NCBI GenBank assembly: GCA_016871535.1
Contig: VHCZ01000034.1
Coordinates: 1-36,429, forward strand
Origin: Verrucomicrobiota bacterium
GTDB taxonomy: Bacteria; Verrucomicrobiota; Verrucomicrobiia; Limisphaerales; SIBE01
DNA: 36,429 nucleotides
Direction: 5' to 3'
Of the stretch, positions 276 to 36,273 are shown one piece after another. The translations under genes were made by a program, and so were the position numbers. The notes beneath the pieces were generated by a model that saw only the letters and a program-made list of their open reading frames with translations, did not search any database and was not told the origin of the DNA. How positions within the stretch are numbered: the first letter of the stretch is position 1; each line of letters begins with the position of its first letter.

Positions 276-3200
276 CTACGGAATCAAGACGGCGCGGAAG
301 AAGGAGGATGAGGCGGTGGGGCGGATCGGGATTCTCATCACGCGGTCGGACGGCGCCGGGGGGATGTCGGCGAGTTTTTGCCAGGCGCCAGTTGTCAGGG
401 AATTGCGAAGTTCGATGGCGTAGGCCCGGTTCGCGGCGGCCGTGAATTCGAGAGTCAGGCCGCCGCTGGCATCGGCGCGCACACCGGTCTTGAGGACGCT
501 GGCGGCGTCGCGGGGATTGGTGCCGGCCAGGTACTCCTGCGCGTTGCTCAGGCCGTCGGCATCGGAATCGGCGGCGGCGTCGGAAGGATCGTTGGGATTG
601 AGGCCGTGGGCGATTTCCCAATCGTTCGGCAAGCCGTCGTGGTCGGAATCGCCCGGAGCGGCGAAGCCTGCGCCAGGATTGGGCGGCGCGGCGGTCCAGT
701 TCGCGGGATCGTTACCGTAGAGGGTGGCGCTGCGCCGGTGCAACGAATGACCGCTGCTATCGGCTGAGGCGGGCCACGGAGAAGCGTCGCTGTAGTCGAT
801 TCGTTCCACGGTGACGTAAGGGATCAAACCGAAGTCCGGGCCGGGCAACGTCTGCGGCGCATCCGGCTTTTGAAGTTCGAGGGTATCGCCGGCCCGGTTG
901 AGCTTGCCGCTGAAAGGTCCGATCAACGCCGCGCCGGTTCCGTAGGCCTTCTGGAATTCCGAGACCGCGACGGTGTCGGAACGCGGATCAAAACTTACGA
1001 CCACGAGGAAACCGCCGGCGGGAATGCTGGCATCGAGCGGGAAATCGAAATCAACTCCTTTGCGCAGCCGCCAGGTGTGGGCGGGATTGGCCGGATCATA
1101 AAGCGGCACAGCGACGGCGCTGAAATTGTGCAATTCGACAAATTCCAGCGCGGCGTTGGTTTTGGCGGGATGATACATGATTTCACTGAAGACGACAGGG
1201 CCGACTTTCGCGGACGAATTGGCTGCGCCGGCGCCGAGTTTGAATTCGTTGGTGGTGGCCGGGTTGTCCTTTCCGAAAGTGCGTTGCGCCAACGGCACGA
1301 AATGAGAGCCTAGTCTGGTCTGGAATCGCCCAAAGGAAACGCCATTCTCCGCCGGGCCGAACGCCGCCGAAGCACGATAGCCCGTGAGCGTGCCATTGAC
1401 CGCCTGCGACAGAAAGACCTCATCGCCTTTCGCGGAGCTGAACGAGAACGGTTCGCCGGCGCCGCCGGCGCGGTTGAATTGGTCTTCGTAAAACACCGCG
1501 AAGCCGCCCGGCGCGATCACGGCGCCGGCCGGAATCTGAAACTTGCGGAGGTTGGACGCGGAGTCGCTCAGGAACCAGCCGCTGAGATCGACGGCGGACG
1601 CGCTGGCATTGAAAAGCTCGACGGCGTCCATGAGCGGCGGATCGCTGTGGCTGAGCAGTTCGTTGATGACAACGTTACCGAGCGGCAAGTAATTCCCGCT
1701 CCCTGGCGTGGGGGTGGCGGCGAAGCTCACGAGGCTTGCGGCGCCATCGGGGAATCGGCCTTCGGAGACATCCGGGAGCTGCGGGCCGAAGCTGAGGCCG
1801 TCGATCAACCCGCCGTTCGCGGTGGAGAGCGCGAGCGATTCGCCGGAAGCGCTCAGTTTGAAGTTCACGTGGTTGGCGCCCGCTTCCGGCTGCTCGTCAG
1901 CGACGAACTTCTGAAAGCCATGCAGGCCGATGCCGATGAACGAGAGCGGCGGCAGCAGATGTTTCATTGGGTCGGCGAGGTTGTCGGAGAGCCAAAAACC
2001 GCTCAGGTCCACCGGTTCGGGATTTGGGTTGAAGATCTCAAACCAATCGCCCGGCTCGGCGGGAGCCTCGCCCCACCGGACGCCGGCCTTCGCGTCAGCC
2101 ATCCATTCGTTGATTTTGAGCAACCGCGGATTTCCCAGAGTGGCGGCGCGGTTCGCGGCGCCGACGGTCGGAACCGTGAGCGTCCAGTTCGTTGTGCCGT
2201 CGGGCACGCGGCCGATCGACCAATCCGCAGGCTGCAACCCGTAGGTCACTGAGCTTTGCAGGCTGCCGCCTTCGGCTGGGCGACCAAACAAGAAGACCGC
2301 GCCGCCTCCGGCGTTGAGGCCGAATCCGGTGTTGGCCGGTGCCGCGGCCGTGGCTGCGTCGAAGCGAACTTTGAGAAAGCCTTTCGCCGGGATGATTGAA
2401 CCGCCAGGGAACGACCAGCGCCGCGGGTTCGCGGCGTTGTCGGTCAAGCTCAAGCCCGCAAGATCGACGGCGGTCGCAGAAGGATTGTAGAGTTCGACCC
2501 AATCCGGGCGGCTGCCGTCGGGTTCGGCGAACGTGGCATTGTTCGCGAGCACTTCGTTGATCAGAACGCCGGACTGGGCGGCGGTGTTGGCCGTCATTAG
2601 CGCGTCGATCTTGAGTCCAAAAACGACGGCGCTGCTGGTGGCGTTGATCTGGTGGACTTCGACGGCGAGGAAGTTTGCGCCGGGGCGCAACTGGTCCGCA
2701 GGCAGGGTGAAGGTGCGCAAGGCGGCGTCCCCCAGATTGGCGGCGGCGAAAGACTCGTACGTGGCGCCGGCCGCGAGATTGTAGCGCGCCACTTCGCGTC
2801 CGTTCAGATAAAACGCCGCGCCGTCATCAACCAAGTGGGAGACCTGGACGCTGCTGGGCGCGAGCGCGGGATCGACGTTGAACTGCGCCCGAAAATAGTA
2901 AGTGGCGTAGCGCGCGGTCGGGAGCACCGTCCGGATCGGTTCGGGCAAAGGATTGGTTTTGACGCCGAGCAAGCCTGGTCCGGAGTTCCAGGCGGCGGCG
3001 TCGAAACCGGGATTGAACCACGCGGTGCCCAGGTCCGTGCCCGACGCCTCAAACTTCCAGACGTGATTGTAGGGAACCAGCGTGATCGACTGCGGAGGGG
3101 ACGCCTCGAACGGGCATTGATTCGGGCCGCCCGGAGTCGGCGCGTCGAGCGCCTTCAGCGCCGCATCGCCGTCCGGACAGCGGCCGGTCGAGACGCCGGT

Positions 3201-6200
3201 CCGTTGCGGGCCATAAACGACGGAATCGATCAAGGATTGGTCCGGCGCGAACAGCGCAATCTCGCCCTGGTCCGGATCGAGGCCGAAGTTGAATTCGTTC
3301 GCTCGATTGCCATTGCCTGAGACAAAGAGTGCGAAACCTTTCGCGGGAATAAAACTCAGAGGAGCGATGCGGCGGCGTGCCGGCGCGCCGATGGGTTGGT
3401 CCGTCAAGGAACATCCGCCGAGGGCGACGGGCCGCGATTCCGGATTGTAGAGTTCGACGAAGTCGTCCGGATACGGGCTGATGCCGGAGGCGAGCCACTC
3501 GTTGATGCGGATTTGCCGGAGATCGCCCACGGGCTGGATCACGTTGGCCGATCCGAAAGTTGGCTGCGTCAGTTGCCAATCACCGCCCTCGCCGACGCGT
3601 CCGAGGGAGAGATCGGCCATCTGCGCGCCGAACTCCACGAAATCGAGCAACGCTCCGCCGGCGGCGACGCTGTTGAGGAGATAAACGCCGTCGCCCGCGG
3701 CATCGAGCGAGAATCCGAGTTGCGCCGAATCCAAAACCAGAAAAGCGCCCCGAGCGAGCGTGGCGGGACCGAACGTAAAAGCGTTCGGCTTCCTGAGATC
3801 GTCCGTGAGGCGCAGGCCGGCAAGATTCACGGTCGCGGCGCCTTCGTTGAGCAACTCGACCTGGTCGCGCAAGGCGCCGGTGCGGCTGGCGATGATTTCA
3901 TTGAGCCGGACGCCCAGCCAGGCGGTGTTCACGACCCAGGAAACACGAGTGGCGTTGTTTGCATCCTGGTACACGCTGGCGGCGTTCCGGCCAATGACGG
4001 CGACGGTGTTCGTGCCGTTGGCCAGATTGGAAAGCGCAATCGGCGTATCGACCAACAATTCCGCGCCGAAGGCGCCCCCATTCAAGCTGAAGCGGTAATG
4101 AGTGATGCCGGCGCCGCCGACGTCAAGTGTGGCGGAGGTTCGGGGCGTAGGAGAGCGCGGCGCGCCGGAAACATTCGCCAACGGGACGCTTCTCGTGGTG
4201 CGGGCGGGGAGCTGCGACTGCACATAATTGCGGCGCCCGTCCATCCACGTTTTCACGCTGCTGATCGTGGCTTGAGGCACGTAGCTGCCGAGCACTTGAT
4301 CGATGAGCGTGTCGAACTGTGGTTTGGAAAAGGTCGTGTCCAGGAGGCGCTGCAGCGTGGCCAGGTAAAGCGGCCCGAAGTCCGACGAGCGCAGGAATCG
4401 TGTCATCGCCCGCCACGAACCTTCGGTGTCACCGGAGATCGGGCAGCAGGTGCCGCGAAAGATTTCGACGTTTTGCGCGAGCGATCCGGGCTGGCCGAGA
4501 ATCTGATCGAGATCATGAAACAACAGGATGAATCGCGGGTCCGACTCGCCGCGATAGAGGAAATAATCGTCGTTGTTCCCGGTGTTCAGGCCGGACTCGC
4601 CGTTGGCCATGAGGTTCATGACCGCGAGATGCGTCAGCCATTGGTCCACGTTGACGACTTTGCGGACGTTCTCGGTGGTGAATAGGGCGCTGCTGTTCTC
4701 GCCCATGATCTGGAGCATGCCAATCAGGTCGCGCCAATCGTCCTCGGTGACGTTGGTCTCCTTGAAGTAGGTGTTCGTGTAGGAGTTTTTGACGGCGCCG
4801 CGATAGTCGAAGTTGGGCGGGCGAATATCCCGGACGATCCGGTAGAGATTGCCGCCGCTATCGGACGGGAAGTGACGGTCGGCCCAGTCCGCGCTATAGA
4901 CTTCGTTCGCGGCGTAAGAGCCGAACATTGGGGCGCCGGGCGTGGCGCGGTTGGCGTTGTTCACGCGCACCTGGACGGCGCGCGAGTAAGTCCCGGCCGC
5001 GCCGGATTTGATCGCCAGCCAGCTTCCGAAATTCTGCATGTGAACCTGGCGGGTATTCAGATTGATCGCGGTCACGGCTTTCCACGGATCGTCGGTGCGG
5101 AAGTTGACGCGATAATTCGGCGGATTCGCCGTGCGGCTGCCGTGGCCGCGATTGCGAACGCCCGTGAGGTAGCGGAGGTTCGTCTCCGTGCCGTCGAAAC
5201 TGATGAACGTGCAGTTCATCTGTGAGTTTGGACCTTCGGCGTTGCTCTGCGAAGGGATGACCGCGAGCTCCGCACGTTCGGCTTCAGTCATGATGAGTTT
5301 GTAGAGCGGCTGGCTGCCGGAATAGACGGCGTCATCGACTTGAAGAAGCGCGTTGGCGACTTGACCGGATGGGCCTGCGCCATCAGCCGCCGCGATGGCC
5401 GGGGCAGGCCAGGTGCGGACATTGTCCGGCGAATCCCCGGCCTCGACGTAGAATTCTACGACGGCGCTATTCGTCTGAGGCGGCAAGACTACGCTGAAGA
5501 TCCCGTCACGAGGCGAAGCATCGCCGTTCTGGCCGTCGTCGCGCATGAGAACGGCGGCAAAAGGCGGCGGGGTCGCGCGGTCCACGCGGTAATGCAGCGC
5601 AACCGAGGCTGGCCTGGACTCGCCGCTCACTTCCGCGGTCACCAGAATCGGCTCCGTGGACTTTGGCACGATTGGGAAGTGCGCGACGTTGCGGATCAAA
5701 GGGGGCGTTCTGGACGCGAGAACCGAGTTGGCTTTTCCTGGCGTTCCCTCGGGGACACGGCTCGAAGCCCAGTTCTGGCCGGAATTGTTGGAGACGTTCG
5801 GGTTGATGAGTTCGAGGGATTTTCCCAGGCCGTCGTGCTCGGCGAACCAGACCCAGCCGCGATGCCCGCGATCGAGCGGTCCGCGCCGGCGCGCCGCCCA
5901 ATCGCCTTCGTCCGCGTAGCGCACGCTGTCCGCGCGACGGCCCTGGGCATCGTCGAGGTCGATGTCTTCGCGGCTGTTGCTGAGGAGGCCGGTCCAATTG
6001 CCCACGACATTTGTGACGGAGGGGTACTTGGTTTTGAACGTGGCGAGGTCAGCCGCGACGACCAGGTAACCGCCGGATGGCAGCGTGAGGTTTGGAAAAG
6101 TAAACTCCACGCCGTCGCTCAAACGCCAGCCCCGCAAATTCACGGCGGACGGGCCGCGATTGAACAGCTCGATAAATTCCTCACGCGGATTCTCCGAGGC

Positions 6201-9197
6201 GGGGTGGTACATGATTTCGTTGATCGCGACGCCGAGTTGCGCGGGATCGAGCACATAATTCCAACCGCCGCCGCCGAAGGCATTGCCCTGCAGATCGCGA
6301 ATGCCGTGCGCTGCCGCCCAGCGAACGGCCACAGTGCCGGGTTCGGGTTGCTGGAAGGTGAACGTGTATCGGCTGCCAGAACCCGCGACCGCCTTGGCGG
6401 GCGCGCCATTGATCAAAAGATCGGCTGCGTCCACGCCGAGGACATCTTTGGCAAACGTGACGGTGATTTCCGTCAGACTCGTGACGATGCCGGGCGGTGG
6501 CGATTGCGTGGTGATGGCCAGCGGCGCGTCCTTGGCGCTGACCGTGATATTGACGGCGCTGGACGTGGCGGACAGTCCGAGCGCGTCCGTCGCGACGGCG
6601 GTGAGCGTGTAGGCGCCCGCAGTGATGTTATTCCAGGAATAGGCGAAGGGACTGCTGAAGGCTTCGCCAATCTTCGAGCCGTTGGCGTAAAAGGAAACAC
6701 TGGCCACGCCGCCGTCAGGATCCGAGGCGTCCGCCGCCAGCGCAATCGTGGCGGGCTCGTTAAAGGCGCTGTTGTTGGCCGGACTGCTGATCTCGATGAG
6801 CGGGCGGGCATTCGGAGGCACGGAACGCACCGCGTTGAGTTCCAGATCGAAGCTCAGGTCCGAGCTGGTGGGATTGGCCTGGTGAATCTCCACCGCGAGG
6901 AGATTGGGTCCCGCCACGAGCAGAGATCGGTCGATGTCCTGACTGAAGAAGTTGGTGGTCTTGTCGGCAGGTTCGGCGTTGGCGGACGAGCGAGTAGCCG
7001 CGGTAATGGCGCCCGCCGGCATATTGCTGCGAAACACTTCGGTCCCGTTCAGATAAACGACTCCGCCATCATCGCGCAGCAGGCGGACGGTCAGCCGCGT
7101 GATCGACGACAGATCTGTGGCCGAGAAAGCGCGGCGGAAATAGGTCGTGATGTAACGGTTGTTCGCGTTGGGTCCAAAGCCAACGACGGTGACCTCGTCG
7201 CCGTCACCGTAGCCGAGTTGGGCTTTGCCCGAATTCCACGAACTATCGTCGAAAGTCGGTTGTCTCCAGGCCGCACCCAGATCGGCGCCCGTATCGAGGT
7301 ACTTCCAATCACTGCCCGCCGCGACCAGGATGTTCGTGGACGACCCCTCGTCCGAGGTGACGACAACGTTCACCGGCGCTGAGGTGGCTATGAGGCTCGC
7401 CGACTGAGTGGCCACGGCGCGCAACGTGTATTTACCCTCGCGAACGTTGCTCCAGAGAAAGGAGTAAGGCGCGGCCAGGTCTTCGCCCAATTTCGTGCTG
7501 CTCTGAAAAAATTCCACGCGCGTCACGGTTCCGGAGAGCGCGTCCGCGGTGGCAGTGATCGTGATGTTGGTCGGGCCGGCGAAAACCGCGCCGGACGCAG
7601 GAGAGGTGATGCGGACCGACAGCTCGCGCGGCGGCGCTGAACCGGCGAAATACCCGATGTCAGTCCGACTCCCGTCGGGATCGGGTGGAGCGGCCGGGGC
7701 GCCCGCGTTGAGGCACGGCGAGTTCGGCAACAACCGGTAATCGCCTGCCGCGGCATCGACGAACAACGGATCGGCCGTGGTGTTTCCCGTTCCGGGCCAG
7801 ACTTCGGAAAGCGCGTTGTAAGTCACGGAAACGAATTTTTCTGGGCCGAAGTCCGAGCGCAGAGCATCGACCGAGCGGACAATGGAGTTGGTCAGGTAAA
7901 TGTTGATGTTGCCGGCGGAGGCGTTGGACTTGGTCGCCGCGGCGACGCCGTGATCGATTCCGGCAATGGTGCAGTGATCGATGCGCACGACTGCCAGCGG
8001 CCCACTGCTCTTGGCCGACACGCCCGCGAAGCAATTGGCAATGAGACAACGCCGGAGCAGGACTTCGCCGTTGAAGACGCTGACGCCTTTGGCGTCCTCG
8101 TTCGCGTTCGGCCAATCGCGAATGAGACAATTCTCGACCGTGACGGTTGAATCGAGCGTATCGATGGCATCGTCGGCGCCGGACGCGATGACGCAGCGGG
8201 AGAGCGTGAGCGGGCGTCCGGCGGCAGTGTGAAGATAAATGCCGTCGGCGTCGTCCGGCCCGGTCATTTCCAGCAAGTAACTGTTCGTGCAGACCAAACC
8301 TGTGCCGGCGATTTCGGGTCCCATGCGCGCCCGCGTCAGGACGCAATCGCGGAACGTCAGGGTCGAGGCGTCCGCCATCATGATTTTCCCGATAGTGGCG
8401 CCGCCTGCCGTGAGGTCGGAAATGACGCAGCCATCGAAGGTGAGCGTGGCATTGTTAAGGCGAAAGGCTGGACCGGTGCCAGTGTGGCCTTCGCCCGGGG
8501 CGCGGCCCGCCTTGCTGATGAAGGTGTGTTGATAGGTGGATGGCTGGGAATCGGCATGCCGGATTTGCCCCCAATTCAGATTGGCGTCCGAACACGTGAT
8601 GACCACGGGACCGAGTTCAGTGCCGAGCGATTGAACCGAGCCGTTGACGGTGAGGCTGAAGCCGGTCGTGCCGGAAGCCACGCCGTTGATCAACACGAGC
8701 GTGTTCGGCTGAATCGTCAGGGTGTGTCCGGACGGGACGGTGACGTTGCCCGTGACCGAAACGATCCCGCTCCAGGTAGTGCTGGCGCCCGGCAGCGTGC
8801 CCTGGACAGAGACGGATGGCTGGCCGGTGAGATTGCGGACGGTCCGGGTGGCGCGCTCGCCGTTCACGGTCGCCGTCAAAGTGAAATCTGTGTTTCCACC
8901 AATGGTGAGCAAGGCGGTGCCCAGGCCGTTTCGCACCGCCACGCGGCTTGGGGAAAGACTGATGCCGGGTTGATCCGCTGTGAGGAGAGCTTCGGCGTCC
9001 CAGAGATTCCAATCCCGCGCGCCGGTGTTGTCGCGCACCTCCACGCACACAAGGAAAGGGACCGCAGGCCGAGAGCCGGATGGGGTGATTAGCCTGACCT
9101 CGGCCAAAGCGTTCCCGGTTGTGCCCAGAATCGCGCAGGCGAAAAAGGCCGGGAGAAGTCCGAGCTGCTTGTGGCCACGCAAAAGAAATCCGCTCAT
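276..9197 (-). CDS. Giant exported protein: beta-helix, Ig-like, lamin-tail and CotH kinase domains
   Basis: Predicted 2973 residues. I start at the ATG at 9197 because it opens a signal peptide (MSGFLLRGHKQLGLLPAFF, AL-A cleavage near residue 32); the frame stays open up to 9281 but that extension looks like non-coding sequence. Approximate layout: parallel beta-helix 225-480; Ig-like 526-610; jelly-roll 'DSSWNSG' domain 622-790; Ig-like 800-885; a SwmB/Big_5-like segment 890-975; lamin-tail domain (LTD) 988-1105; CotH-type kinase 1290-1630 with NDDYFLYRGESDPRF and the metal-binding HDLD; LTDs near 1760, 1894, 2210, 2360, 2510 and 2665; a second jelly-roll 2040-2200; a calcium-binding DxDxDG (thrombospondin type 3) stretch 2850-2895; and a C-terminal module. 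LTDs are recognised by INE(W/I/V/L) starts and F(I/V)EL(F/Y)N motifs. It is probably a cell-surface or secreted protein; CotH kinases phosphorylate proteins, but the substrate here is unknown. Confidence 0.88.
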   Translation of the reverse strand: MSGFLLRGHKQLGLLPAFFACAILGTTGNALAEVRLITPSGSRPAVPFLVCVEVRDNTGARDWNLWDAEALLTADQPGISLSPSRVAVRNGLGTALLTIGGNTDFTLTATVNGERATRTVRNLTGQPSVSVQGTLPGASTTWSGIVSVTGNVTVPSGHTLTIQPNTLVLINGVASGTTGFSLTVNGSVQSLGTELGPVVITCSDANLNWGQIRHADSQPSTYQHTFISKAGRAPGEGHTGTGPAFRLNNATLTFDGCVISDLTAGGATIGKIMMADASTLTFRDCVLTRARMGPEIAGTGLVCTNSYLLEMTGPDDADGIYLHTAAGRPLTLSRCVIASGADDAIDTLDSTVTVENCLIRDWPNANEDAKGVSVFNGEVLLRRCLIANCFAGVSAKSSGPLAVVRIDHCTIAGIDHGVAAATKSNASAGNINIYLTNSIVRSVDALRSDFGPEKFVSVTYNALSEVWPGTGNTTADPLFVDAAAGDYRLLPNSPCLNAGAPAAPPDPDGSRTDIGYFAGSAPPRELSVRITSPASGAVFAGPTNITITATADALSGTVTRVEFFQSSTKLGEDLAAPYSFLWSNVREGKYTLRAVATQSASLIATSAPVNVVVTSDEGSSTNILVAAGSDWKYLDTGADLGAAWRQPTFDDSSWNSGKAQLGYGDGDEVTVVGFGPNANNRYITTYFRRAFSATDLSSITRLTVRLLRDDGGVVYLNGTEVFRSNMPAGAITAATRSSANAEPADKTTNFFSQDIDRSLLVAGPNLLAVEIHQANPTSSDLSFDLELNAVRSVPPNARPLIEISSPANNSAFNEPATIALAADASDPDGGVASVSFYANGSKIGEAFSSPFAYSWNNITAGAYTLTAVATDALGLSATSSAVNITVSAKDAPLAITTQSPPPGIVTSLTEITVTFAKDVLGVDAADLLINGAPAKAVAGSGSRYTFTFQQPEPGTVAVRWAAAHGIRDLQGNAFGGGGWNYVLDPAQLGVAINEIMYHPASENPREEFIELFNRGPSAVNLRGWRLSDGVEFTFPNLTLPSGGYLVVAADLATFKTKYPSVTNVVGNWTGLLSNSREDIDLDDAQGRRADSVRYADEGDWAARRRGPLDRGHRGWVWFAEHDGLGKSLELINPNVSNNSGQNWASSRVPEGTPGKANSVLASRTPPLIRNVAHFPIVPKSTEPILVTAEVSGESRPASVALHYRVDRATPPPFAAVLMRDDGQNGDASPRDGIFSVVLPPQTNSAVVEFYVEAGDSPDNVRTWPAPAIAAADGAGPSGQVANALLQVDDAVYSGSQPLYKLIMTEAERAELAVIPSQSNAEGPNSQMNCTFISFDGTETNLRYLTGVRNRGHGSRTANPPNYRVNFRTDDPWKAVTAINLNTRQVHMQNFGSWLAIKSGAAGTYSRAVQVRVNNANRATPGAPMFGSYAANEVYSADWADRHFPSDSGGNLYRIVRDIRPPNFDYRGAVKNSYTNTYFKETNVTEDDWRDLIGMLQIMGENSSALFTTENVRKVVNVDQWLTHLAVMNLMANGESGLNTGNNDDYFLYRGESDPRFILLFHDLDQILGQPGSLAQNVEIFRGTCCPISGDTEGSWRAMTRFLRSSDFGPLYLATLQRLLDTTFSKPQFDTLIDQVLGSYVPQATISSVKTWMDGRRNYVQSQLPARTTRSVPLANVSGAPRSPTPRTSATLDVGGAGITHYRFSLNGGAFGAELLVDTPIALSNLANGTNTVAVIGRNAASVYQDANNATRVSWVVNTAWLGVRLNEIIASRTGALRDQVELLNEGAATVNLAGLRLTDDLRKPNAFTFGPATLARGAFLVLDSAQLGFSLDAAGDGVYLLNSVAAGGALLDFVEFGAQMADLSLGRVGEGGDWQLTQPTFGSANVIQPVGDLRQIRINEWLASGISPYPDDFVELYNPESRPVALGGCSLTDQPIGAPARRRIAPLSFIPAKGFALFVSGNGNRANEFNFGLDPDQGEIALFAPDQSLIDSVVYGPQRTGVSTGRCPDGDAALKALDAPTPGGPNQCPFEASPPQSITLVPYNHVWKFEASGTDLGTAWFNPGFDAAAWNSGPGLLGVKTNPLPEPIRTVLPTARYATYYFRAQFNVDPALAPSSVQVSHLVDDGAAFYLNGREVARYNLAAGATYESFAAANLGDAALRTFTLPADQLRPGANFLAVEVHQINATSSAVVFGLKIDALMTANTAAQSGVLINEVLANNATFAEPDGSRPDWVELYNPSATAVDLAGLSLTDNAANPRRWSFPGGSIIPAKGFLKVRFDAATAAAPANTGFGLNAGGGAVFLFGRPAEGGSLQSSVTYGLQPADWSIGRVPDGTTNWTLTVPTVGAANRAATLGNPRLLKINEWMADAKAGVRWGEAPAEPGDWFEIFNPNPEPVDLSGFWLSDNLADPMKHLLPPLSFIGIGLHGFQKFVADEQPEAGANHVNFKLSASGESLALSTANGGLIDGLSFGPQLPDVSEGRFPDGAASLVSFAATPTPGSGNYLPLGNVVINELLSHSDPPLMDAVELFNASASAVDLSGWFLSDSASNLRKFQIPAGAVIAPGGFAVFYEDQFNRAGGAGEPFSFSSAKGDEVFLSQAVNGTLTGYRASAAFGPAENGVSFGRFQTRLGSHFVPLAQRTFGKDNPATTNEFKLGAGAANSSAKVGPVVFSEIMYHPAKTNAALEFVELHNFSAVAVPLYDPANPAHTWRLRKGVDFDFPLDASIPAGGFLVVVSFDPRSDTVAVSEFQKAYGTGAALIGPFSGKLNRAGDTLELQKPDAPQTLPGPDFGLIPYVTVERIDYSDASPWPASADSSGHSLHRRSATLYGNDPANWTAAPPNPGAGFAAPGDSDHDGLPNDWEIAHGLNPNDPSDAAADSDADGLSNAQEYLAGTNPRDAASVLKTGVRADASGGLTLEFTAAANRAYAIELRNSLTTGAWQKLADIPPAPSDRVMRIPIRPTASSSFFRAVLIP

Positions 9198-9323
9198 TCG
9201 CTCAACAAACAGCAATTCGCAGTCCAGAAAGCGAGGGAATTCGTGAGGTTGGTGGGAGCGGTCGCATCTCATTTCCTGCACGACTCACTCGAAACGAACC
9301 CGTCGAGGAGTGCCGGAGATTCT

Positions 9324-24115: not shown

Positions 24116-26914
24116 TCACTTAGCCGCGTGACCGCGCCGTTCCGTCTGAAGGCGCACAAGATCGACCTGCATCTGGTCCGCGCATGGATAGCGCGCCTGG
24201 ACGTTCGGGTCGCACGCCTTAAGAATGATTTCATTGAGCTTCAACAAGGCCTCGCAGTCCGCCCGCTCAGCCAGCGAGGTGGGCAATTCCGGGAATTGCT
24301 TGCGATCTTTGCCCATGCTCGCTTCGTAAAGCACCTTGCCCAGGCTATAAACATCGCCCGCCGCAGTTCCTGGTCCTTCCGGCGGAATATAGCCCTCCGT
24401 GCCGACGTAGGTTGTGGCCGGGCTGCGCTCGTGCAAATCCGTGACCAAACCAATGTCGGCAAATTTCGGCTGGCCATTCACAAAGACGATGTTGGACGGT
24501 TTGATGTCGCGATGGATCAGTTGATGTGAGTGCAAGTGCTGCAAGGCCTCGGTCAACGCCAGACCCAGTTCGAGAGATTCCGCAAAAGAGAGCTTGCCTC
24601 GTTTCTTGAGTTCCTGCGCGAGATTCCGGGCGGAGTAAGTGGCGGGGTTGATCTTTTGCCCGGACACTTCGTCGTCCCCCAACTTTATGATGTAAAAGAA
24701 CCAGCCCTCGCGGTCGTTCTTGCCGACGTGAAGAATGTGGATCAGGCCTCGATGCGTGCGCGAAATCGGCGTGAACTTTTGAATGCCGCGAAACTCGCGC
24801 TCGTACGGCTCGGCGTTGGAGAATTTGCGTCGATAAACAACCTTCACCGCGTGATAACTCCCGATCACGTCTCTGGCCAGCCACACCTGGCCGTACCCGC
24901 CTTCGCCGATCATCCGGATCAACTCGTGATCCGGGATCGCAGGAGCCATTGACGCTGCCGTTACCTCCGGCGCGCGTGAACCGGCCGAATCGAGTTCTGT
25001 CAGGGCCGAACCGTCCGCAGTGGTTCTTTCTGCTCCCGCGTGAGAAGGCGATGGGGCGGTCTCCGTTGCGGCTTCGGCGAGCGCTGAGCTGCCGGCGAGT
25101 CTGGCTTGTTCAACTGGAATGGCCGCTCGCAGCAATTCTCTCTCTGCGTAAAGCCGTTTGCTGTTCACCAGGACGGACCAGCCCAGCGCGCAGGGAATCT
25201 GAACGCCGCAGACGATCAGCCAGGGAAACCAGAGGTGCTGCTGCCAGACCAACCACAGCGCCAGGCCCGCAATCAGGCAAACGCCAGCCGCGCCGATCCA
25301 GGCGGCCACTGAGGTCCGGAACATCGTGAGTCCAAACCCAAAGACAATTCCTAAGAATCCCAGGACAATGACCTCGGCGAACGGGCTGAGCTCGGTGAGC
25401 CACTCGCCTCGCCACAGATTGAGAAACGCCGTCGCCTGGAGTTCGACTCCTGGCGACAACAATCCGGTCCATCTCGTGTAAGGCGTGCCATGCTCGTCGA
25501 AAGATCGGACGCCCGCCGGAGTGATCGCTTTGCCTTGTCCCACGAAGACCACCTTGTCGGAAATGTAAGAACGCTGCGCGGCGTTGGTTTCCAAAACCTC
25601 AAAATAGCTCATGCTGGGAATGATTCCGGGAGGGCCGTAAAAGTTGAGCCACGGAGAACGAGTTCTGTCGCCTGGCCTGCTCCCCAACACCTCAATAGTT
25701 TTCAAAGGTAATTCCACCAACGCGCCCCAAGAAGGGTTCTGAGGCCGGCGCCGAATGCGCGTGTCCAGCTCGCCCGGAAATTCAGCGAGCCCAAACACAC
25801 TGGCCGATCGAATCGGCTCCACGGGAAGGATCCCTCGCCTGGTGATCGGCCCGCCCTGCGGATGCGTTGTTTCAACCGTGGCTGCGGTCACCACTTTGCC
25901 GTGCGCACGCATGGCCGCCGCGAGTTGCTCATCCACTTTCGGATCAGGCCACGGCGACTCGAAAAGGATGTCAAACACGATAGCCTTGGCTTTCCACCGA
26001 GTCAGTTGGTTCACCAGGTTGACATGCAAACTTCGATCCCAGAGACGGCCGAGGTCTTGGCCCAAACGTCTCCGCGACTCGTCGTCCATGTAAACAATCA
26101 AGACTTCGCCAGGTCTGATGTCGGGTCGAAGCGCAAAAGGAAGATCGAAGCTCAACGCTTTTAGACCAAAATCGAATCGAGAAATCAGCAAACACCAACC
26201 AGCCAGCACCGTCAGCATCGCGCCCATCGTCGCTTGCCGCCAGTTCAACGTCAGCCCGCGCTTTACCTTCAACACCTCCCGCAATGCCGTTTCCCGGCGG
26301 GCCGAGTCCTGAGCTTCTCTTTCTGCCTGAGCGGCGCGTCGTTCTGGCAAGGAGCGAAGGTTCGTTGCCAGCTCACCTGCCCGCGCGAAACGAGCCGTTG
26401 GATTCCCGGCAAAACATCGCTTCAAGTCCTCGCGGAGCAGCGGATCCTTCACCTCCTCGCTCCAATCCGTCGTCACGGGTCGCGCCAGATCTCCCGTGAC
26501 CAACTGATAAAAGACCACTCCCAGAGAGTAGATGTCCGCCTGCGCCGAAGCCGGTTTGCCCGCCAGGAGTTCCGGCGCCATGTACACGAAAGTCCCGGTC
26601 TGCGACGACGAGCTGGGGCCCACAAGCGTTTGCGTAAAGCCCGCCTTCGTGACCTGAGCCAGGATTTCTTCCGACACGACCTGGCCGATGCCAAAGTCGG
26701 TCAGCTTCGCGGTCGATTTCGGGTTTCGGATTCTTGAAATCCGCACTCCGCACTCCGCACTCCGCACTCCGCAATCAGATTGTTCGACGGCTTCACGTCC
26801 CGATGGATCACGCCTGCGTCGTGCGCCGCCTGCAATGCGTCCGCCACCTGTGCCACGATCTCCAGCCGCGTCTCCAGCGGAATACGCTCCACGCCCCCAC
26901 GCTCCACGCTCCAC
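24116..26914 (-). CDS. C-terminal part of split cyclase-kinase locus: kinase C-lobe, CHASE2, second kinase
   Basis: Open frame of 932 codons; meaningful coding begins near 26773, because upstream of that it is a shadow of the preceding frame, so no true start is evident. Content: rest of a Ser/Thr kinase domain from KLTDFGIG (about residue 70) through 'GTFVYMAPELLAGKP' and 'DIYSLGVVFYQLVTGD'; a transmembrane helix at about 227-250; a CHASE2 extracytoplasmic sensor domain at about 250-500 ('EVLIVYMDDESRRRLGQDLG', 'AKAIVFDILFESPWPD'); three transmembrane helices at about 510-582 typical of CHASE2 proteins; then a complete second kinase at 661-925 with GEGGYGQV, AVKVV, HRDIKPSN and ADIGLV in place of DFG (the metal-binding Asp is kept). 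It ends 438 bases upstream of the sigma gene. It joins to the cyclase frame if one heptamer copy is added at 26741-26773. Confidence 0.82.
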   Translation of the reverse strand: MERGAWGRGAYSAGDAAGDRGTGGGRIAGGARRRRDPSGREAVEQSDCGVRSAECGVRISRIRNPKSTAKLTDFGIGQVVSEEILAQVTKAGFTQTLVGPSSSSQTGTFVYMAPELLAGKPASAQADIYSLGVVFYQLVTGDLARPVTTDWSEEVKDPLLREDLKRCFAGNPTARFARAGELATNLRSLPERRAAQAEREAQDSARRETALREVLKVKRGLTLNWRQATMGAMLTVLAGWCLLISRFDFGLKALSFDLPFALRPDIRPGEVLIVYMDDESRRRLGQDLGRLWDRSLHVNLVNQLTRWKAKAIVFDILFESPWPDPKVDEQLAAAMRAHGKVVTAATVETTHPQGGPITRRGILPVEPIRSASVFGLAEFPGELDTRIRRRPQNPSWGALVELPLKTIEVLGSRPGDRTRSPWLNFYGPPGIIPSMSYFEVLETNAAQRSYISDKVVFVGQGKAITPAGVRSFDEHGTPYTRWTGLLSPGVELQATAFLNLWRGEWLTELSPFAEVIVLGFLGIVFGFGLTMFRTSVAAWIGAAGVCLIAGLALWLVWQQHLWFPWLIVCGVQIPCALGWSVLVNSKRLYAERELLRAAIPVEQARLAGSSALAEAATETAPSPSHAGAERTTADGSALTELDSAGSRAPEVTAASMAPAIPDHELIRMIGEGGYGQVWLARDVIGSYHAVKVVYRRKFSNAEPYEREFRGIQKFTPISRTHRGLIHILHVGKNDREGWFFYIIKLGDDEVSGQKINPATYSARNLAQELKKRGKLSFAESLELGLALTEALQHLHSHQLIHRDIKPSNIVFVNGQPKFADIGLVTDLHERSPATTYVGTEGYIPPEGPGTAAGDVYSLGKVLYEASMGKDRKQFPELPTSLAERADCEALLKLNEIILKACDPNVQARYPCADQMQVDLVRLQTERRGHAAK

Positions 26915-27912
26915 GTCTTAAGGTCCTTCCCCTCGGCGTAGTCCATCACGAGGTAATACGGCGGCTCGTTCAGGAAGACGTCATGCACCGCGACAATGTT
27001 CGGATGATTCCCGATGCGCTCTTTCAAAACGCGGAACAGAGTGACTTCGCGCTTGAGCGAACGCACCCGGTCAGCCCGAAAACAAAACTTAAACACCTGG
27101 CGCTTCTTCAACGCTTGATGGCAGCCCACCCAGACTTCTCCGAATCCGCCCTCCCCGATCTTGCCTTCGAGGACCCACTGCGTGTTCGGGATGGCTTGGC
27201 CGTTCGCCGGACGCCAGCCGAGCACCGGCTCTTTTTCCACCGCGACGAACCGTTGCGCTTTGTCCGTGTCCTTCGGCGGCAAAAGACGGGCCAGTCCCGT
27301 CTCGCCCACTTCGCATAGATCCAGGTGTTCCTCGACGCCTTTCAGCGAGTAGGTGCCGTGGTTCAACCAGGAAAGCGATCCGAGGCCTTCGAGTTCCTGT
27401 CCTTTCAACACTTGCCGCGCATTGTCGAAAGCAAACCGGGTCATCAGGATTTGATCGCCGTCAGCGAGCGACATGACCCGCGCGCAGGTATCGACCTGAA
27501 TGCCGAACAGGTCCTTGGATCGGCCCGCAGTTTGGTCTTCCTCAATGAAAACCTCGCCCACGTGAATGCCGATGCGATCGAAGACAGGCGCGGGGGCAGT
27601 CTTGGCCAAACTCCTCAGCCTGGATTGCAGCAGCAGACTGAACTTCACCGCATCGGACGGCTTGGCGAAGATGATGAAAAAGGAGTCGCCCGCTGTCTTG
27701 ATCTCCTCCGCTTCGTTGAATTGGCCGAGAAATTTCCGGGCAATGGAATGATGCTGCTGGATCAGGAACAGCCCTTGTTGGTCTCCAAGGCTCTGCTTGA
27801 GTTTGGTCGAGCCGACAATGTCCGTGAACAGCAAAGTGGCCAGCCCGGTGCGATGGCGGCGTCGAAATTCCTCGACCTGCGCATGATGTTCGAGGACCGA
27901 GTCGAGGTTCAT
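26701..27912 (-). CDS. N-terminal part of split locus: class III adenylate cyclase and kinase N-lobe
   Basis: 403 codons from a good ATG (MNLDSVLEHHAQVEEFRRRH). Class III cyclase domain at about 22-190: metal-binding Asp31 (LLFTDIVGST) and Asp76 (KTAGD), substrate-specifying Lys72 and Asp134 (the Lys/Asp pair of adenylate cyclases), and transition-state Arg145. The Asn four residues before that Arg is Asp141 here (VDTCAR), an unusual change. A Ser/Thr kinase begins near residue 245: Gly-loop GEGGFGEV at about 251, Lys in VFKFCF at about 274, and HRDVKPSN at 369. Immediately after the catalytic loop the frame runs through tandem heptamers and stops in junk (QESETRNRPRS), so DFG and the C-lobe are in another frame. 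As written, the product would be a cyclase with half a kinase. No operon partner lies upstream; the 27913-28284 gap is repeats. Confidence 0.85.
   Translation of the reverse strand: MNLDSVLEHHAQVEEFRRRHRTGLATLLFTDIVGSTKLKQSLGDQQGLFLIQQHHSIARKFLGQFNEAEEIKTAGDSFFIIFAKPSDAVKFSLLLQSRLRSLAKTAPAPVFDRIGIHVGEVFIEEDQTAGRSKDLFGIQVDTCARVMSLADGDQILMTRFAFDNARQVLKGQELEGLGSLSWLNHGTYSLKGVEEHLDLCEVGETGLARLLPPKDTDKAQRFVAVEKEPVLGWRPANGQAIPNTQWVLEGKIGEGGFGEVWVGCHQALKKRQVFKFCFRADRVRSLKREVTLFRVLKERIGNHPNIVAVHDVFLNEPPYYLVMDYAEGKDLKTWSVERGGVERIPLETRLEIVAQVADALQAAHDAGVIHRDVKPSNNLIAECGVRSAECGFQESETRNRPRS
26741..26773. repeat. Tandem heptamer (CCGCACT)4 plus CCGCA inside the kinase gene
   Basis: Four exact CCGCACT units at 26741-26768 followed by a partial CCGCA; on the coding strand this reads GCGGAGT. 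It lies between HRDVKPSN and DFG codons of the first kinase domain. Seven is not a multiple of three, so each unit gained or lost shifts the frame. On the 26701 side the adjoining TTTCAAGAATCCGAAACCC (coding strand) looks like degenerate heptamers of the same repeat family, so the inserted segment may be about 55-60 bases in all. Confidence 0.92.
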
Positions 27913-29755: not shown

Positions 29756-30400
29756 AGCAATGAAGTTGCGCTCCGGCTCGGAGTTTGTTACCGCTAAGCT
29801 GGTTTCGGAAATCAATCGTGGTCGAACACAGCGTCGCCGACCTATGAACTCCCTGACTGGAGCGCGGACTGCCCTGTCCGTGAGTTTCTTGACCGAAGCG
29901 CCGGTCCGCGCAGACGCACCTGCCCAGGGTAGAAGTGCCGCGGAGGAGTGCCGCGCATCCAAGCCGCAAGTGAGTAATTTAGCCGCAAAAGAACCCAAAG
30001 ATCGCAAAGATTTCTTCGCCCTGCTATTGCCCTTTCTGCATCACTATTTGTCAAGACCACGCATCTCCGAGAGCATGCACCGCGGATGTCGCGGATGGGC
30101 ACGGATAGGAGTGGCGCGGGATCGGTCAATCCTGTTTTTATCCGCGCTATCCGCGAGATCCGCGGTTTGTTTGGATGCGGTTTCAACGCACTGTGTTCCT
30201 TTGCGGCCACAGAAATTCGCGCGAGAACGAGTGGTTTGAAAGGATTGCAGCGCTGGCTTTTGCTGACGCTTCGGTCGGAGCAAGGGGCTTCGCAGCCGCG
30301 CACAGAAGCAAACAAACAGAACAAATGCTCTTTTGTTGTTCGATTGCTTCGCAACAGAAACGGGGCCTTTGCGCTCTCTGCGTTCTTTCGTGGCTCGCTA
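29756..30400. other. Repeat-derived intergenic DNA before the FlgG-like gene
   Basis: Open frames exist, but their sequence looks like remnants of several dispersed repeats. Near 29994 there is a 'CAAAAGAACCCAAAGATCGC' unit; 30079-30165 has CGCGGATGTCGCGGATGG facing ATCCGCGCTATCCGCGAGAT; near 30361-30395 there is a 'GCGCTCTCTGCGTTCTTTCG' unit. I see no gene that I can defend in 29756-30085. The stretch 29337-29500, before the MITE, likewise shows only degenerate repeat sequence. Confidence 0.55.
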
Positions 30401-31447
30401 TGCAGCCGGTTAGGCTTCGCGGTGGTTGTGCTCGCGATCATGGAATGGGGGACCACGACTTGGGCCGCCGCCCCGAGCAACCAAGCAGGCACGAGCAATG
30501 TGGTGGCTCGGTTCTATCGGGTAAAGTTGAAGCCGTTTCCGACTCAACCCACCGACGCCGGTAATGCGCAAAACGCCGCGACGATCCGGATTGAGGAGCC
30601 TTACTTTCGCGACGCAGAACGAACTTATGGCGGGTCGGCTCCCGAGGCCATAATCGGCGACGGATTCTTCCAGGTGCAATTGCCCGACGGAACACAAGCT
30701 TATACGCGCGATGGCAACTTCAAGTTCGCCGGCAACGGTCTCATCGTGACTCAGGAAGGTTATCCCGTTTTGGGAGGTCTGCCGCTTTTTCCCCCTTCAA
30801 CGAGGGGCGTGATCTTCAGCTCACAGGGTGAGATCGCCCTCACCACTGCCGGTGGAGGCGTAAATGTCGGAAGAATCACTCTGACTCGCTTCCAGAATCC
30901 GGCTGATCTGAAGCCAATCGGTTCAAACTTGTTTGTTGAAACGCTGGCTTCAGGTCCACCCGAGACTGGGAATCCGGGCGAAAACGGATTCGGAGAATTG
31001 TGTGGTGGATTTTTTAGGTTGCCCGGGTCCGTTGGCTTCACGGTGCGGCTCTCTGAACAAGGCCGAATCGAGGTCGAGTTCTGCCTGGACCTGCGAGATT
31101 GGACGGTTGTGGCCAGTGCTCCGGTGTCTGCGCGAGGACCACTGTTCGCAGGAGGCACACTGATCGTTCGCGATCTGCAGCCGTTTGCGGGCGGGCCGAC
31201 TACGGCCGGGACTCTGATCGACGTGGATGTCTCAGAAGCTTTGAAGCTCTTCGGCCGACGGCTTCCGGACGGCAGATTCAGCGTCTCGATCAGTGGCAGC
31301 GCCGCCTCGAACGCGGTCCTTCAGGCTTCGACCAACCTGGTCAATTGGCTGCCCATCTTCACGAACTCGGGTTCAGGTGGACGGTTTGAGTTTCTGGACA
31401 CGGCTAGCGGAAATCAGCCGTGGCGTTTCCACCGGGCCATTAGGTGA
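30086..31447 (+). CDS. Exported protein with a flagellar FlgG-like core and shared C-terminal module
   Basis: The open frame has 453 codons, but residues 1 to about 105 are repeat-derived, so the true start is unclear. A hydrophobic signal-like segment GFAVVVLAIMEWGTTTWAAA lies at about 108-127; the only nearby in-frame ATG (30440) falls inside it, so a non-ATG start upstream is likely. Residues about 188-310 closely follow the distal-rod protein FlgG: 'AIIGDGFFQVQLPDGTQAYT', 'RDGNFKFAGNGLIVTQEGYP', 'GRITLTRFQNPADLKPIGSN', 'FVETLASGPPETGNPG', 'NGFGELCGGFF'. The terminal rod helices of FlgG are missing and no flagellar genes are nearby. Residues about 385-453 form a C-terminal module (LQASTNLVNWLPIFTNSG ... 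WRFHRAIR) shared with the next gene, which starts 7 bases later. Function unknown; probably surface or secreted. Confidence 0.8.
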   Translation: MSRMGTDRSGAGSVNPVFIRAIREIRGLFGCGFNALCSFAATEIRARTSGLKGLQRWLLLTLRSEQGASQPRTEANKQNKCSFVVRLLRNRNGAFALSAFFRGSLCSRLGFAVVVLAIMEWGTTTWAAAPSNQAGTSNVVARFYRVKLKPFPTQPTDAGNAQNAATIRIEEPYFRDAERTYGGSAPEAIIGDGFFQVQLPDGTQAYTRDGNFKFAGNGLIVTQEGYPVLGGLPLFPPSTRGVIFSSQGEIALTTAGGGVNVGRITLTRFQNPADLKPIGSNLFVETLASGPPETGNPGENGFGELCGGFFRLPGSVGFTVRLSEQGRIEVEFCLDLRDWTVVASAPVSARGPLFAGGTLIVRDLQPFAGGPTTAGTLIDVDVSEALKLFGRRLPDGRFSVSISGSAASNAVLQASTNLVNWLPIFTNSGSGGRFEFLDTASGNQPWRFHRAIR

Positions 31448-31454
31448 GACGGAG

Positions 31455-32315
31455 ATGAAAAGGCTGCTTGTTTGCAAGTTTAAACGACTGTTGTGGTCGG
31501 GACTGTTGCTTTACCTCGCCTCTACTCCTGGCGATCTGTGTGCCCAACCTTCCAGCATCCCACGCGAGGATTTTTGGGTGCCAAACTATGCCAATAGCCC
31601 GTTTTACCTGGCCGAAAAGGATGGAATCCTTTACGTGAGCGGATGGTTCAATGGCGCGGGGCGCCCTGCCGCTCATGCACTGGTCGTGGATTTTGGCACG
31701 GGAGCAGTCAGCACGGCATTGCCGGAGCTTCGCGGACCATGGGTGACCCCCGATCAGGCTGGGGGCTGGTATACCGTAGTTCCCCTTCCTTTGAGCGGCG
31801 GAGAGACTCACTTTGGTTTGGCGCACATGCGCAGTGATCAATCCTTAGATGCAGATTGGACGCCCTCGCCCATATTGTCAGTTTTCATTTCAGCCATTGG
31901 CGTCGGAGGTAACAAAGTGTTTGTGGCCGGTAGAAACCGGGGCAGCACTGACTCAGTTGTCGTCGCTTTGGATTCTGTGACAGGCAAAGTGAGCGACCTA
32001 AAACTCCCAGCGATTGATATTTCGAATGTCACCAAACTTGCCGTGTCGGACAATGCCCTCTTCGTAGCGGGTTACTCTTCATCCCCGCCGCCCAAATCCC
32101 TCCTCGCTGCTTTCGATATCAAAACTGGTCAGCGCTTGCCGTGGAACCCGATCACTTCGATAATAGACAAATTCGGAAGGGGGGAGGAGGAGGAGCGTAT
32201 CTGGCGGATTTCGCAGTTACCTGCGACAAAGTTTTTGTGGGTGGCGCGTTTACAGAGATCAATGGAGAAGTTCGCAACAGTCTGGCTTCTTTCGACCGCA
32301 CTACCGGCAGGCTAA
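31455..32315 (+). pseudogene. Frameshifted exported repeat protein, segment 1 (signal peptide, first propeller repeats)
   Basis: Opens with a signal peptide (MKRLLVCKFKRLLWSGLLLY ... LCAQ) 7 bases after the FlgG-like gene, so both form one operon. The coding sense runs to about 32184: 'DGILYVSGWFNGAGRPAAHA', 'NKVFVAGRNRGSTDSVVVAL', 'NALFVAGYSSSPPPKSLLAA' are blades of a propeller-like repeat of the type 'vyvaG.f....g..r..laalD..tG....w.p'. After the run of six G at 32179-32184 the frame turns to nonsense and the real continuation lies one base back. Adding one base there and one near 32788 makes a continuous frame of 1606 residues to 36273. The breaks may be genuine mutations or base-calling errors. 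Confidence 0.72.
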
Positions 32316-32839
32316 TGCCTTGGAACCCGAATACGTCCTTCAGCGGGAGGACTGATGTCTGGATCCACCGGGTTATTGCGCAGAGCGACATCGTTTGCGT
32401 CAACGGCAATTTCGATAAGATCGGAGGAGAATCTCTCTGGAGTTTTGCCGCCTTGGATTCCTCATCCGGTAAACCGCTCGATTGGAGGAAACCGGACAGG
32501 AACGCCGAATTCTATCCGATTGCGCTCTCTGGAAACACCCTCTACGGGACATTCGATGGAGTCAACGAACTCGGATTCTTCGAAGATGACCTCCGTGCGC
32601 TCGATGCCACGACGGGCAACACAATTTCGAAAGTACCATTGAACATTTCGGGTTTCGGCGTTCCGGTAATTTCCGGCAACTTGGTCTTACTGAGCGGGAA
32701 TCTTACCTGGGGTGGCGTCCGTCGATCTCCTGGTCTCATGGCTTTTGACACCTCGACTGGAAAAGCCACAGATTGGAATACGGCCCATTCATTGGCGGGG
32801 TCTCCGGCGTCGGGAACCCGGACAAAATTTATCAGGTGA
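32141..32839 (+). pseudogene. Frameshifted exported repeat protein, segment 2 (propeller repeats)
   Basis: Real coding content from about 32185 to 32785, continuing segment 1: 'DKVFVGGAFTEINGEVRNSL', 'ASFDRTTGRLMPWNPNTSFS', 'DIVCVNGNFDKIGGESLWSF', 'GNTLYGTFDGVNELGFFEDD', ending in 'GLMAFDTSTGKATDWN'. The repeat pattern then resumes in the next frame as PFIGGVSGVGNPDKIYQVKI, so a second single-base loss is indicated close to the CCC at 32788-32790. It has no start signal of its own. Confidence 0.7.
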
Positions 32840-33816
32840 AGATTCAGGGCAACAGAATTTACGCCGCGGGTGGGTTCTGGATTGATTCAGAGGTAGACCC
32901 TGGCCTCGATTTTCACGTGGGCCTCGCAGCTTATGATCTCAGCACGGGTAAGCTTGTCAAAGACTGGAATCCCAGTGCTGCCTTCATCTCGACGAACGTC
33001 CCATTCTCTATCGAAATTGAGGCTTTCGACGTTTTGGGCAACACCATGTACGCGGGGGGCCCCGGAGGCTCTCTCTTCAACAGTGATGAGCTACTCTCAA
33101 AGACGAGGCCTCTTGCCGCTGTGGATTTGCGGACTGGAAAGGCAATAGACTGGAATCCAATTCTCGGAGGCGCTCGATCCAGCGTTAGGGCGATCGCCGT
33201 GGGCGAAAAGGCGGTGTACCTTGCGGGCTCCTTCCAAACTGTGAACGGCCAGCCTCGGAATAGTCTTGCCGCCCTTGAGCCAGTTACTGCTGTTCCTCTT
33301 CCCTGGAATCCTGAGGCTGACGGTCCGGTCCGGACCTTGGCGGTTTCTCACAATCGAGTTTACATCGGTGGCTACTTCACGAGGGTTAATGGTAGGGCAC
33401 GCAATGGTCTCGCGGCGCTCGACCCAACTACGGGCGAATGCCTGGATTGGAACCCAGCCGCGTCCAGCAGTTCTCCAACTGGATCGTGGCTCGAGAGTCT
33501 CTACATTTCGGACAACACAATTTATGTGAGCGGCAACTTCGAAAGAATTGGAGGAGAAAGCAGGACGAACGTTGCTGCCTTGAACGCGACGACTGGCCGA
33601 GCAACGGACTGGAGCCCGAGTATAAACTGGAACCCGAGCAAATTCATCGGAAGGGGCTTAGCGTTTGTTCAGTTCCGCGACACAGTCGCGGTCGCGGGAA
33701 CCTTCTCTGAGGTCAACGGACGGTTCCACCCGAACTTGGCTATTTTTCCGCCTGTCGGTGAACCGGTGATCACGCAGCAACCGCCGAACCGAACTGCTGG
33801 GCTCGGAGAAAGCTTA

Positions 33817-34089
33817 GAGCGTGTCCGAAAATTCCGCGGGGTCCTGTTTTCGCGCCAAAGGCCGGATGGCGAGGCGCGACGAAGGAGAATATCCTCCCTG
33901 GATCTTCGACTGAGGAGCAACGAAGCCAGGCGGCCTTTGGCGCGAAAACCCTCCGGGCGGCGGGTCTTTTGTCCGTGGCCTGCGTTGGCTCGGTCCTTAC
34001 AGCCCGCGTTGGGGATGCTCGGACCTCGCCGCCTTGGCCACAGCCAAAATCCCTCGCCGCAGGACCCCGCGCAATTTTCGGACACGCTC
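33817..34089. mobile_element. 273-bp MITE inserted in frame in an Ig-like domain
   Basis: The left end GAGCGTGTCCGAAAATTCCG and the inverted right end GAGCGTGTCCGAAAATTGCG match, continuing CGGGGTCCTG. TTA at 33814-33816 and TTA at 34090-34092 are the target duplication. Element plus one duplication is 276 bp, exactly 92 codons, and has no stop in the host frame. Joining the flanks on paper gives GLGESL-VLGVVADGVTPLSYQW, the standard start of an Ig-like domain. It shares its core with the element at 29501-29752 (GAGCAACGAAGCCAG, CAGCCCGC, GGGGATGCTC). Confidence 0.88.
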
Positions 34090-35301
34090 TTAGTCTTGGG
34101 CGTTGTGGCCGACGGAGTAACTCCGCTGTCCTACCAATGGCAATTCAACGGAGCCAATCTAGTCGGAGCCACGAACTCAATTCTGGTCCTAACGAATCTT
34201 CAGGTGGGGAACTCGGGCCGCTATAGCGCGGTGGTCACGAATCGTCTCGGGCTTATCAACAGCGCCGAAGCATCGATCGTAGTAGTTATGCCCCCGCGCA
34301 TCGACATTCAACCGCTAACCCAAATCGCGACAGTGAGCTCGTCCGTCAGGTTTGGCGTCGCAGCCCCAGCCAATCCGCCTCCGTCCTACCAATGGCTGCT
34401 CAATGGCACCAAAATCACGGGAGCAACTGAATCCACGCTCACGTTGACGAATCTCCAACCGACCGATGGCGGGAGCTACAGCGTTGTCGTCAAGAACATC
34501 GGCGGCGCGGTCAACAGCGACATTGCCGGACTCGTCATTCCCAGTCCGCGGCTGCCTCTCTCGGATAACCTGCGGGATCGCATAGTGACCAATTCTTTCT
34601 CCAGCCTTGGAAGCGCCAACAGTACCAACGGGACGAAGGAAGTTGGCGAACCAGATCATGTGGGCAAGCCCGGACGCAAATCCCTTTGGCTCGGTTGGCG
34701 AGCGCCGGCCAATGGCGTCGCCACCTTCAGCACGCGCGGCAGCGGGTTCGACACGTTGCTGGCGGTCTATACGAACGCGGCGCCGAACCTACCGCCGGAT
34801 TATTCGAACTTGCGCTTCGTCGCTGGCGACGATGATCGCGGCGGGTTCGCCACCAGCGAGGTGGCGTTCAGCGCGGCGGCCGGCGTCGAGTATTTGATCG
34901 TGGTGGATGGTTTCGGGAAATCGTCGGGGAACATTGTGCTGAGTTGGAAGTTTGATCCGGTGATTACGGAAGCCCCGAGGATTTTCCAACAACCCTTGGG
35001 CCAGACGGTGGCCGTCGGGGAGATGGTGAGTTTCTCGGTGACCGCGTTCAGCACGCGTCCGTTGACCTACCAATGGTATCAAAACTGCGCCCCGATTCCC
35101 GGTGCGACCAACGCGACATTGACAGTGACCAATGTGCAAGCGCACCTGGTGGCCCGATACCGCGTGCAAGTCGGCAATGGTCAGGAAGGCGTGGAGAGCG
35201 AGCCGGCGTTTTTGGAGATCAACTTCAGCGGCGACGCCGGGCTAGTGCAAAAGGTGGCCAGCCGAGACAAGCTGGCGGAGGTGGTCGTGATTGGAGGAAA
35301 C

Positions 35302-35401
35302 GTAGCGCGGGCCTCCTGGCCTGCGGGTTCACCGGGCGTCCCGCCCGGTGAACGTTCGCTGTTGAGCCAGACGGGCTGGCAGGCTGGGAAGCCTGCCCTA
35401 C
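35302..35401. repeat. 100-bp palindromic element inside the coding sequence
   Basis: The left end GTAGCGCGGGCCTCCTGGCC is inverted relative to the right end, which reads GTAGGGCAGGCTTCCCAGCC on the opposite strand. An inner hairpin CACCGGGCGTCCCGCCCGGTG (35329-35349) lies between. In the host frame it reads ARASWPAGSPGVPPGE ... GWQAGKPALLS, unlike the surrounding domain sequence but free of stops. No target duplication is visible. Confidence 0.65.
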
Positions 35402-36273
35402 TTTCGCCAGGATTCGGCGGCGCGCCGGCGCGCGGATTTGTGGGGACACAGATTTTCCACACGTTTGGAAAAACCAAAGAGATTGGCGATCCCAATCACG
35501 CGGGGGAACCCGGCGGCGCCTCGGCGTGGTATTCGGTGCTGGCGGACGAGGACGGCAAGATGCTGGTGAGCACCGAGGGAAGCGATTTCGACACGGTGCT
35601 GGCGGTGTATGAAGGGCCGCCCAATCCGCTGGGTTACGATGAACTCGTGATGCCGGCGCTGGCATCGGATAACAACCGAGGCTTTGATCGCAAGAGCAGC
35701 CGGGTGATTTTTGATGCGGCGCCGAATCGCACGTACCATATCGCGGTGGATGGGGTGAGTGGAGTGCAAGGGCAAGTGGTGCTGACGTATCAGTTGGGTT
35801 CGCCGCCGGAATTGGCGGCGCAGCCGGCGAGCGGCGTGTGGAAAGTGGGGAACGTGGTCATCCTGGAGGTGCGCGTGCGGAGCCGTGTGCCGGTGGTTTA
35901 TCAGTGGCGATTGAACGGGCTTCTGTTGAGCGGAGCGACCAATGCGACCCTGGTGATCCCAGTGCTCCAGTTGCCGAATGTGGGCAAGTATAGCTGCGTG
36001 GTGAGCAATTTTGCGGGCGTGGCGACGAGCGCCGACGCGCAAGTGAGTGTGGAGTTGACCGAAGCCTTGAGGCTGTCAGGACGGCGCCTACCAGATGGGA
36101 GCTTTGGGATCCTGATCGGCGGCACTGCCCTCACAAACGCAGTCCTTCAGGCCTCGACCGATCTGATCAACTGGCTGCCGGTGTACACCAACGCCGGGCA
36201 AAGCGGTTTTGGCGAGTACATCGACCGCTCGGCCTCGAACCATTTCTGGAGATACTATCGCGCGGTCCGATAG

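Follow-up and report, generated by a model that had tools for sequence, protein, structure and literature searches.

Results

FlgG-like frame and its neighborhood

The window, by which we mean the whole analyzed stretch of 36,429 nt from the Verrucomicrobiota bacterium assembly GCA_016871535.1 (contig VHCZ01000034.1, positions 1-36,429, forward strand), contains at 30086-31447 of the + strand a long frame of 453 aa that encompasses a core homologous to the flagellar rod protein FlgG, with unrelated sequence on either side (Table 1). The next gene begins 8 bases downstream.

Table 1. Features of the 30086-31447 frame and its downstream neighbor, in window positions.
Feature	Position	Strand	Evidence
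Interspersed intergenic repeat, traversed by the long frame	30076..30180	.	DNA search of own genome
Candidate start region and signal-like hydrophobic stretch (LGFAVVVLAIM...WAAA)	30344..30484	+	In-frame starts, hydrophobicity, comparison with G006 N-terminus
RFYRVKLKPFPTQPT, resembling the G006 C-terminus	30509..30553	+	BLOSUM62 score 54, reached by 0/2000 shuffles
FlgG core, residues 188-310, including the PF22692 D1 domain	30647..31015	+	Profile, sequence, AlphaFold, Foldseek, invariant residues
Non-FlgG tail (RLPGS.GFT...VRDL), common to the G006 protein	31016..31180	+	Alignment score 96, 0/2000 shuffles
C-terminal module (LQASTNLVNWLP...RFHRAIR)	31250..31444	+	55% identical to end of next gene
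Downstream neighbor: propeller-type repeats, Ig domains and the same C-terminal module, in three reading frames	31455..36273	+	

A FlgG core without its rod helices

The original prediction, that residues of about 188-310 follow FlgG nearly block by block, is confirmed by several lines of evidence. In searches with profiles of the FlgG/FlgF families, the TIGR02488 FlgG profile matched the segment significantly (8.5e-32, profile positions 94-215 of 259), as did PF22692, the D1 domain of FlgE/F/G (67.9 bits, 8.8e-19, above its curated cut-off of 27), and the core matched solved FlgG chains at 3.9e-25 with phmmer. The AlphaFold model has a pLDDT of approximately 86-97 in the core and low values over most other parts of the protein, and FlgG chains are the top PDB matches of a Foldseek search with this model. 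The core, which comprises about 123 residues and is 56% identical to the genome's own FlgG with the same predicted fold, retains 27 of the 31 residues that are invariant across 21 true FlgGs, and its 16-residue loop ASGPPETGNPGENGFG is identical in the own FlgG. Five near-invariant residues are lost, three of them at the C-terminal edge, next to the foreign tail. The whole protein scores 110.7 bits against TIGR02488, below the curated cut-off of 252.75, and 91.7 bits in two stretches against TIGR03506, a flagellar hook-basal body subfamily, above the cut-off of 70.25.

The terminal rod helices are absent, as had been predicted. Neither PF00460 (N-terminal rod helix) nor PF06429 (C-terminal rod helix) matched the protein even at E<=1, and the genome's own FlgG, serving as positive control, matched both (1.5e-10 and 1.1e-20, respectively); a tblastn search with the first 92 and last 43 residues of FlgG found nothing across the whole window. 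Packing between FlgG subunits involves D1 and also D0, the domain made of the terminal helices (PMC5288503), and the core alone is therefore not expected to form a rod; a protein that has lost D0 is unlikely to polymerize in this way. Crystals have nevertheless been obtained from a Salmonella FlgG core fragment (PMC6681337), and so the core can fold alone.

The genome has flagellar genes of its own, which were assigned by reading open reading frames: flgF, flgG (261 aa), flgA, flgH, flgI, flgK, flgL and fliD on contig C5, and flgD, flgE, fliL, fliM, fliN and fliO on contig C150. The window gene is on a different contig from the C5 cluster and outside any flagellar cluster, and since a separate full-length FlgG is encoded in that cluster, the window protein does not fill the FlgG role, in agreement with the non-flagellar status originally proposed for it. 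As a separate observation, several genomes of genus g82 in family f7 contain two FlgG-sized matches on different contigs, which possibly represent two flagellar systems.

Sequences flanking the core

The core had been described as framed by a signal-like segment and a C-terminal module, and both are found, a hydrophobic signal-like stretch upstream and the module downstream; roughly the initial 100 codons of the long frame, however, consist of interspersed intergenic repeat DNA, which places the gene start later, within 30344-30440. The in-frame candidates are TTG 30344, GTG 30422, GTG 30428 and ATG 30440, none of which is preceded by a convincing ribosome-binding site or stands out as a convincing start. 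A DNA search of the own genome places further interspersed repeats at about 29976-30014 and 30368-30395. More generally, 29976-30395 holds several short interspersed repeats with many genome copies, and copies of the ~30076-30180 family are 73-81% identical. Between the signal-like stretch and the core, the segment RFYRVKLKPFPTQPT resembles the C-terminus of the G006 protein (see below). It is probably the remnant of an earlier tandem duplication that involved an internal deletion.

The tail that follows the core may represent a degenerate version of the C-terminal module. The protein bears, at its extreme C-terminus, the W, D and R..R pattern of the ASTN..W...RFYRA module, which a profile search located at 48 places in this genome. 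This module looks like a general tail of exported proteins because it forms the extreme C-terminus in nearly all checked occurrences; a profile search of the PDB with it gave weak matches only (best E 0.017). The propeller/Ig gene named in the original prediction as operon partner is indeed adjacent and has the module in common, but it is frameshifted over three reading frames, which reflects either assembly errors or a decaying gene. A further out-of-frame stretch lies near 33780-34080 of this neighbor.

The same fusion in a congener

The only known ortholog of the window protein is a 269-aa protein of the congener G006 (contig C199), which combines a signal-like start, a FlgG core and the same non-FlgG tail. 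It differs in being without the second C-terminal module, and in that its end segment is found near the N-terminus of the window protein. Because the fusion of core and tail recurs in G006, an assembly chimera or chance can be rejected as its source. A first tree recovers the cores of the two proteins as sisters (99/97) and groups them with the FlgGs of their own genus (99/88); a second tree agrees on the sister pair (97/95) but gives weak support (63/3) for joining it to those FlgGs. The two cores differ by 0.31, 0.20 and 0.65 at codon positions 1, 2 and 3, respectively, with dN about 0.31-0.35 and dS about 1.35 or saturated, and the gene has therefore been under purifying constraint for at least much of its history. 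When the core-tail junction by itself was searched across the class, only chance-level matches resulted (the genomes searched apparently did not include G006), and a GTDB scan returned essentially true FlgGs.

Similar proteins across the phylum

Proteins of a comparable kind were found in G042, G185 and G770 in addition to G006. In a survey of 196 genomes of the order, the frames far longer than FlgG or FlgF among the matches listed were those of the window, G042 and G185; the list was limited by E-value and may lack weaker cases. The G042 lipoprotein (C520, 578 aa) contains two tandem FlgG-type cores, a lipobox and traces of the rod helices, and the G185 lipoprotein (C25, 673 aa) contains four tandem cores and a lipobox with no helices. 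Like the window protein, both are apparently exported, have FlgG-type cores and are encoded away from flagellar clusters, but they do not contain the ASTN-W C-terminal module. Among 388 genomes of the phylum, PF22692 was detected in 48, with more than three matches only in this genome and in G770, a member of another class, where the extra match lies in a 1656-aa protein (C324). This long, apparently exported protein has several FlgE/F/G-type D1 copies and an InlB-like repeat (PF18998), and its cores are FlgE-like rather than FlgG-like, their best matches elsewhere looking like FlgE by elimination from FlgF-FlgG pairs. The 1656-aa protein and a 64% identical tandem paralog are encoded at 4285-9252 and 770-2440 of C324, with a gene for a ShlB-type transporter and a transposase-like open reading frame nearby. 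The G042, G185 and G770 proteins all carry signal or lipobox sequences, and flagellar genes are present in each of the five genomes with such apparently exported core proteins.

In tests of common origin, grouping all seven rows as one clade gave p 0.011, which disfavors a single origin of the FlgG-like cases; grouping the window pair with G042 was marginally rejected (p 0.037), and grouping it with G185 was not (p 0.155), so that the independence of the window pair from the G185 case is no more than suggested. The reuse of the rod core in these relatives seems to have arisen separately, several times.

Discussion

That a protein which is non-flagellar and apparently exported has reused a rod module is well supported. 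We consider it somewhat probable (roughly 58%) that the window gene is an exapted flgG copy, which after duplication lost its helices and whose product was redirected to export, to serve as a domain of the envelope or surface. Under this proposal flgG would have been duplicated in an ancestor of this genus, and the copy would have retained the compact beta-rich core, lost both terminal helices, and acquired an N-terminal export signal and the C-terminal module found on dozens of other proteins in the genome. Its product would most likely be exported by the general secretory (Sec-type) route and would serve as a domain in the periplasm or attached to the surface, in which the core acts as a binding or structural unit and not as a rod subunit. 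The original prediction that a rod module has been reused for a surface structure is upheld as to reuse by the separate FlgG and by the G006 fusion; the surface structure, like the Sec route, the location in the envelope and the role of the core in binding or structure, is what we infer for the protein. Searches of the open-licence literature turned up no description of a FlgG core in an exported protein outside flagella.

Several features count against exaptation, namely the absence of a clean start or ribosome-binding site, the repeats abutting the 5' end, the frameshifted neighbor, the rearranged appearance of the tail and N-terminus, the differing support for nesting within the genus's FlgGs (99/88 in one tree, 63/3 in the other), and the fact that a single ortholog is known. 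All but the last two of these would fit an unlikely but still considerable alternative, in which the gene is decaying or non-functional, a flgG fragment fused by repeat-driven rearrangement, without a proper start and next to a broken gene spread over three frames. On the other side, the frame is open across 453 codons, differences between the window gene and the congener gene are far more frequent at third codon positions than at the other two, and the G006 copy opens with a clean signal-like start. Given the repeats, the lack of a convincing start and the neighbor's frameshifts, recent decay is possible, and it could have affected the window copy alone.

A slightly less probable alternative is that the protein is a flagellum-associated accessory, a periplasmic rod mimic that touches the P/L ring or the rod and tunes assembly. 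The FlgG outer surface is reported to contact the P ring during assembly (PMC8298488), and the surface of the window core is largely retained, including the loop shared with the own FlgG, but only one of three Salmonella FlgG patch residues (PMC8298488), Asp109, is clearly present in our reading of the phmmer alignment. The window gene is, moreover, not in a flagellar cluster and its C-terminal module is a general one. The presence of flagellar genes in all five genomes is also consistent with a rod mimic, but such co-occurrence says little because flagellated genomes are the sole source of the domain. A broader and rather speculative proposal, to which we give still less weight, is that the rod/hook core has become, repeatedly within Verrucomicrobiota, an exported and often tandemly arranged building block, and that some of these proteins are ring-docking, assembly-regulating periplasmic rod mimics. 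That the protein is an ordinary FlgG or a second flagellar rod protein, as automatic annotation might name it on the strength of the TIGR03506 score, is very improbable, being contradicted by the loss of both D0 helices, the sub-cut-off TIGR02488 score, the foreign C-terminal modules and signal-like N-terminus, and the true FlgG elsewhere in the genome.

Flagellar axial proteins are usually regarded as dedicated parts, and the exapted flgG copy would represent one such core outside the flagellum, without its polymerizing helices and with its export route probably switched. Together with the comparable proteins in three other lineages of the phylum, it offers a comparison set for the change from a rod domain to an ordinary exported domain. 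It is also a warning for annotation, in that a protein unlike a flagellar part passes the TIGR03506 cut-off.

Elsewhere in the window, 24116-27912 contains two adjoining protein-kinase open reading frames, the upstream one ending in a repeat-like stretch, AECGVRSAECGF, that seemingly interrupts the kinase domain. An open reading frame of 3001 aa at 276-9281 of the - strand encodes seven lamin-tail domains, bacterial Ig domains and a CotH kinase domain.
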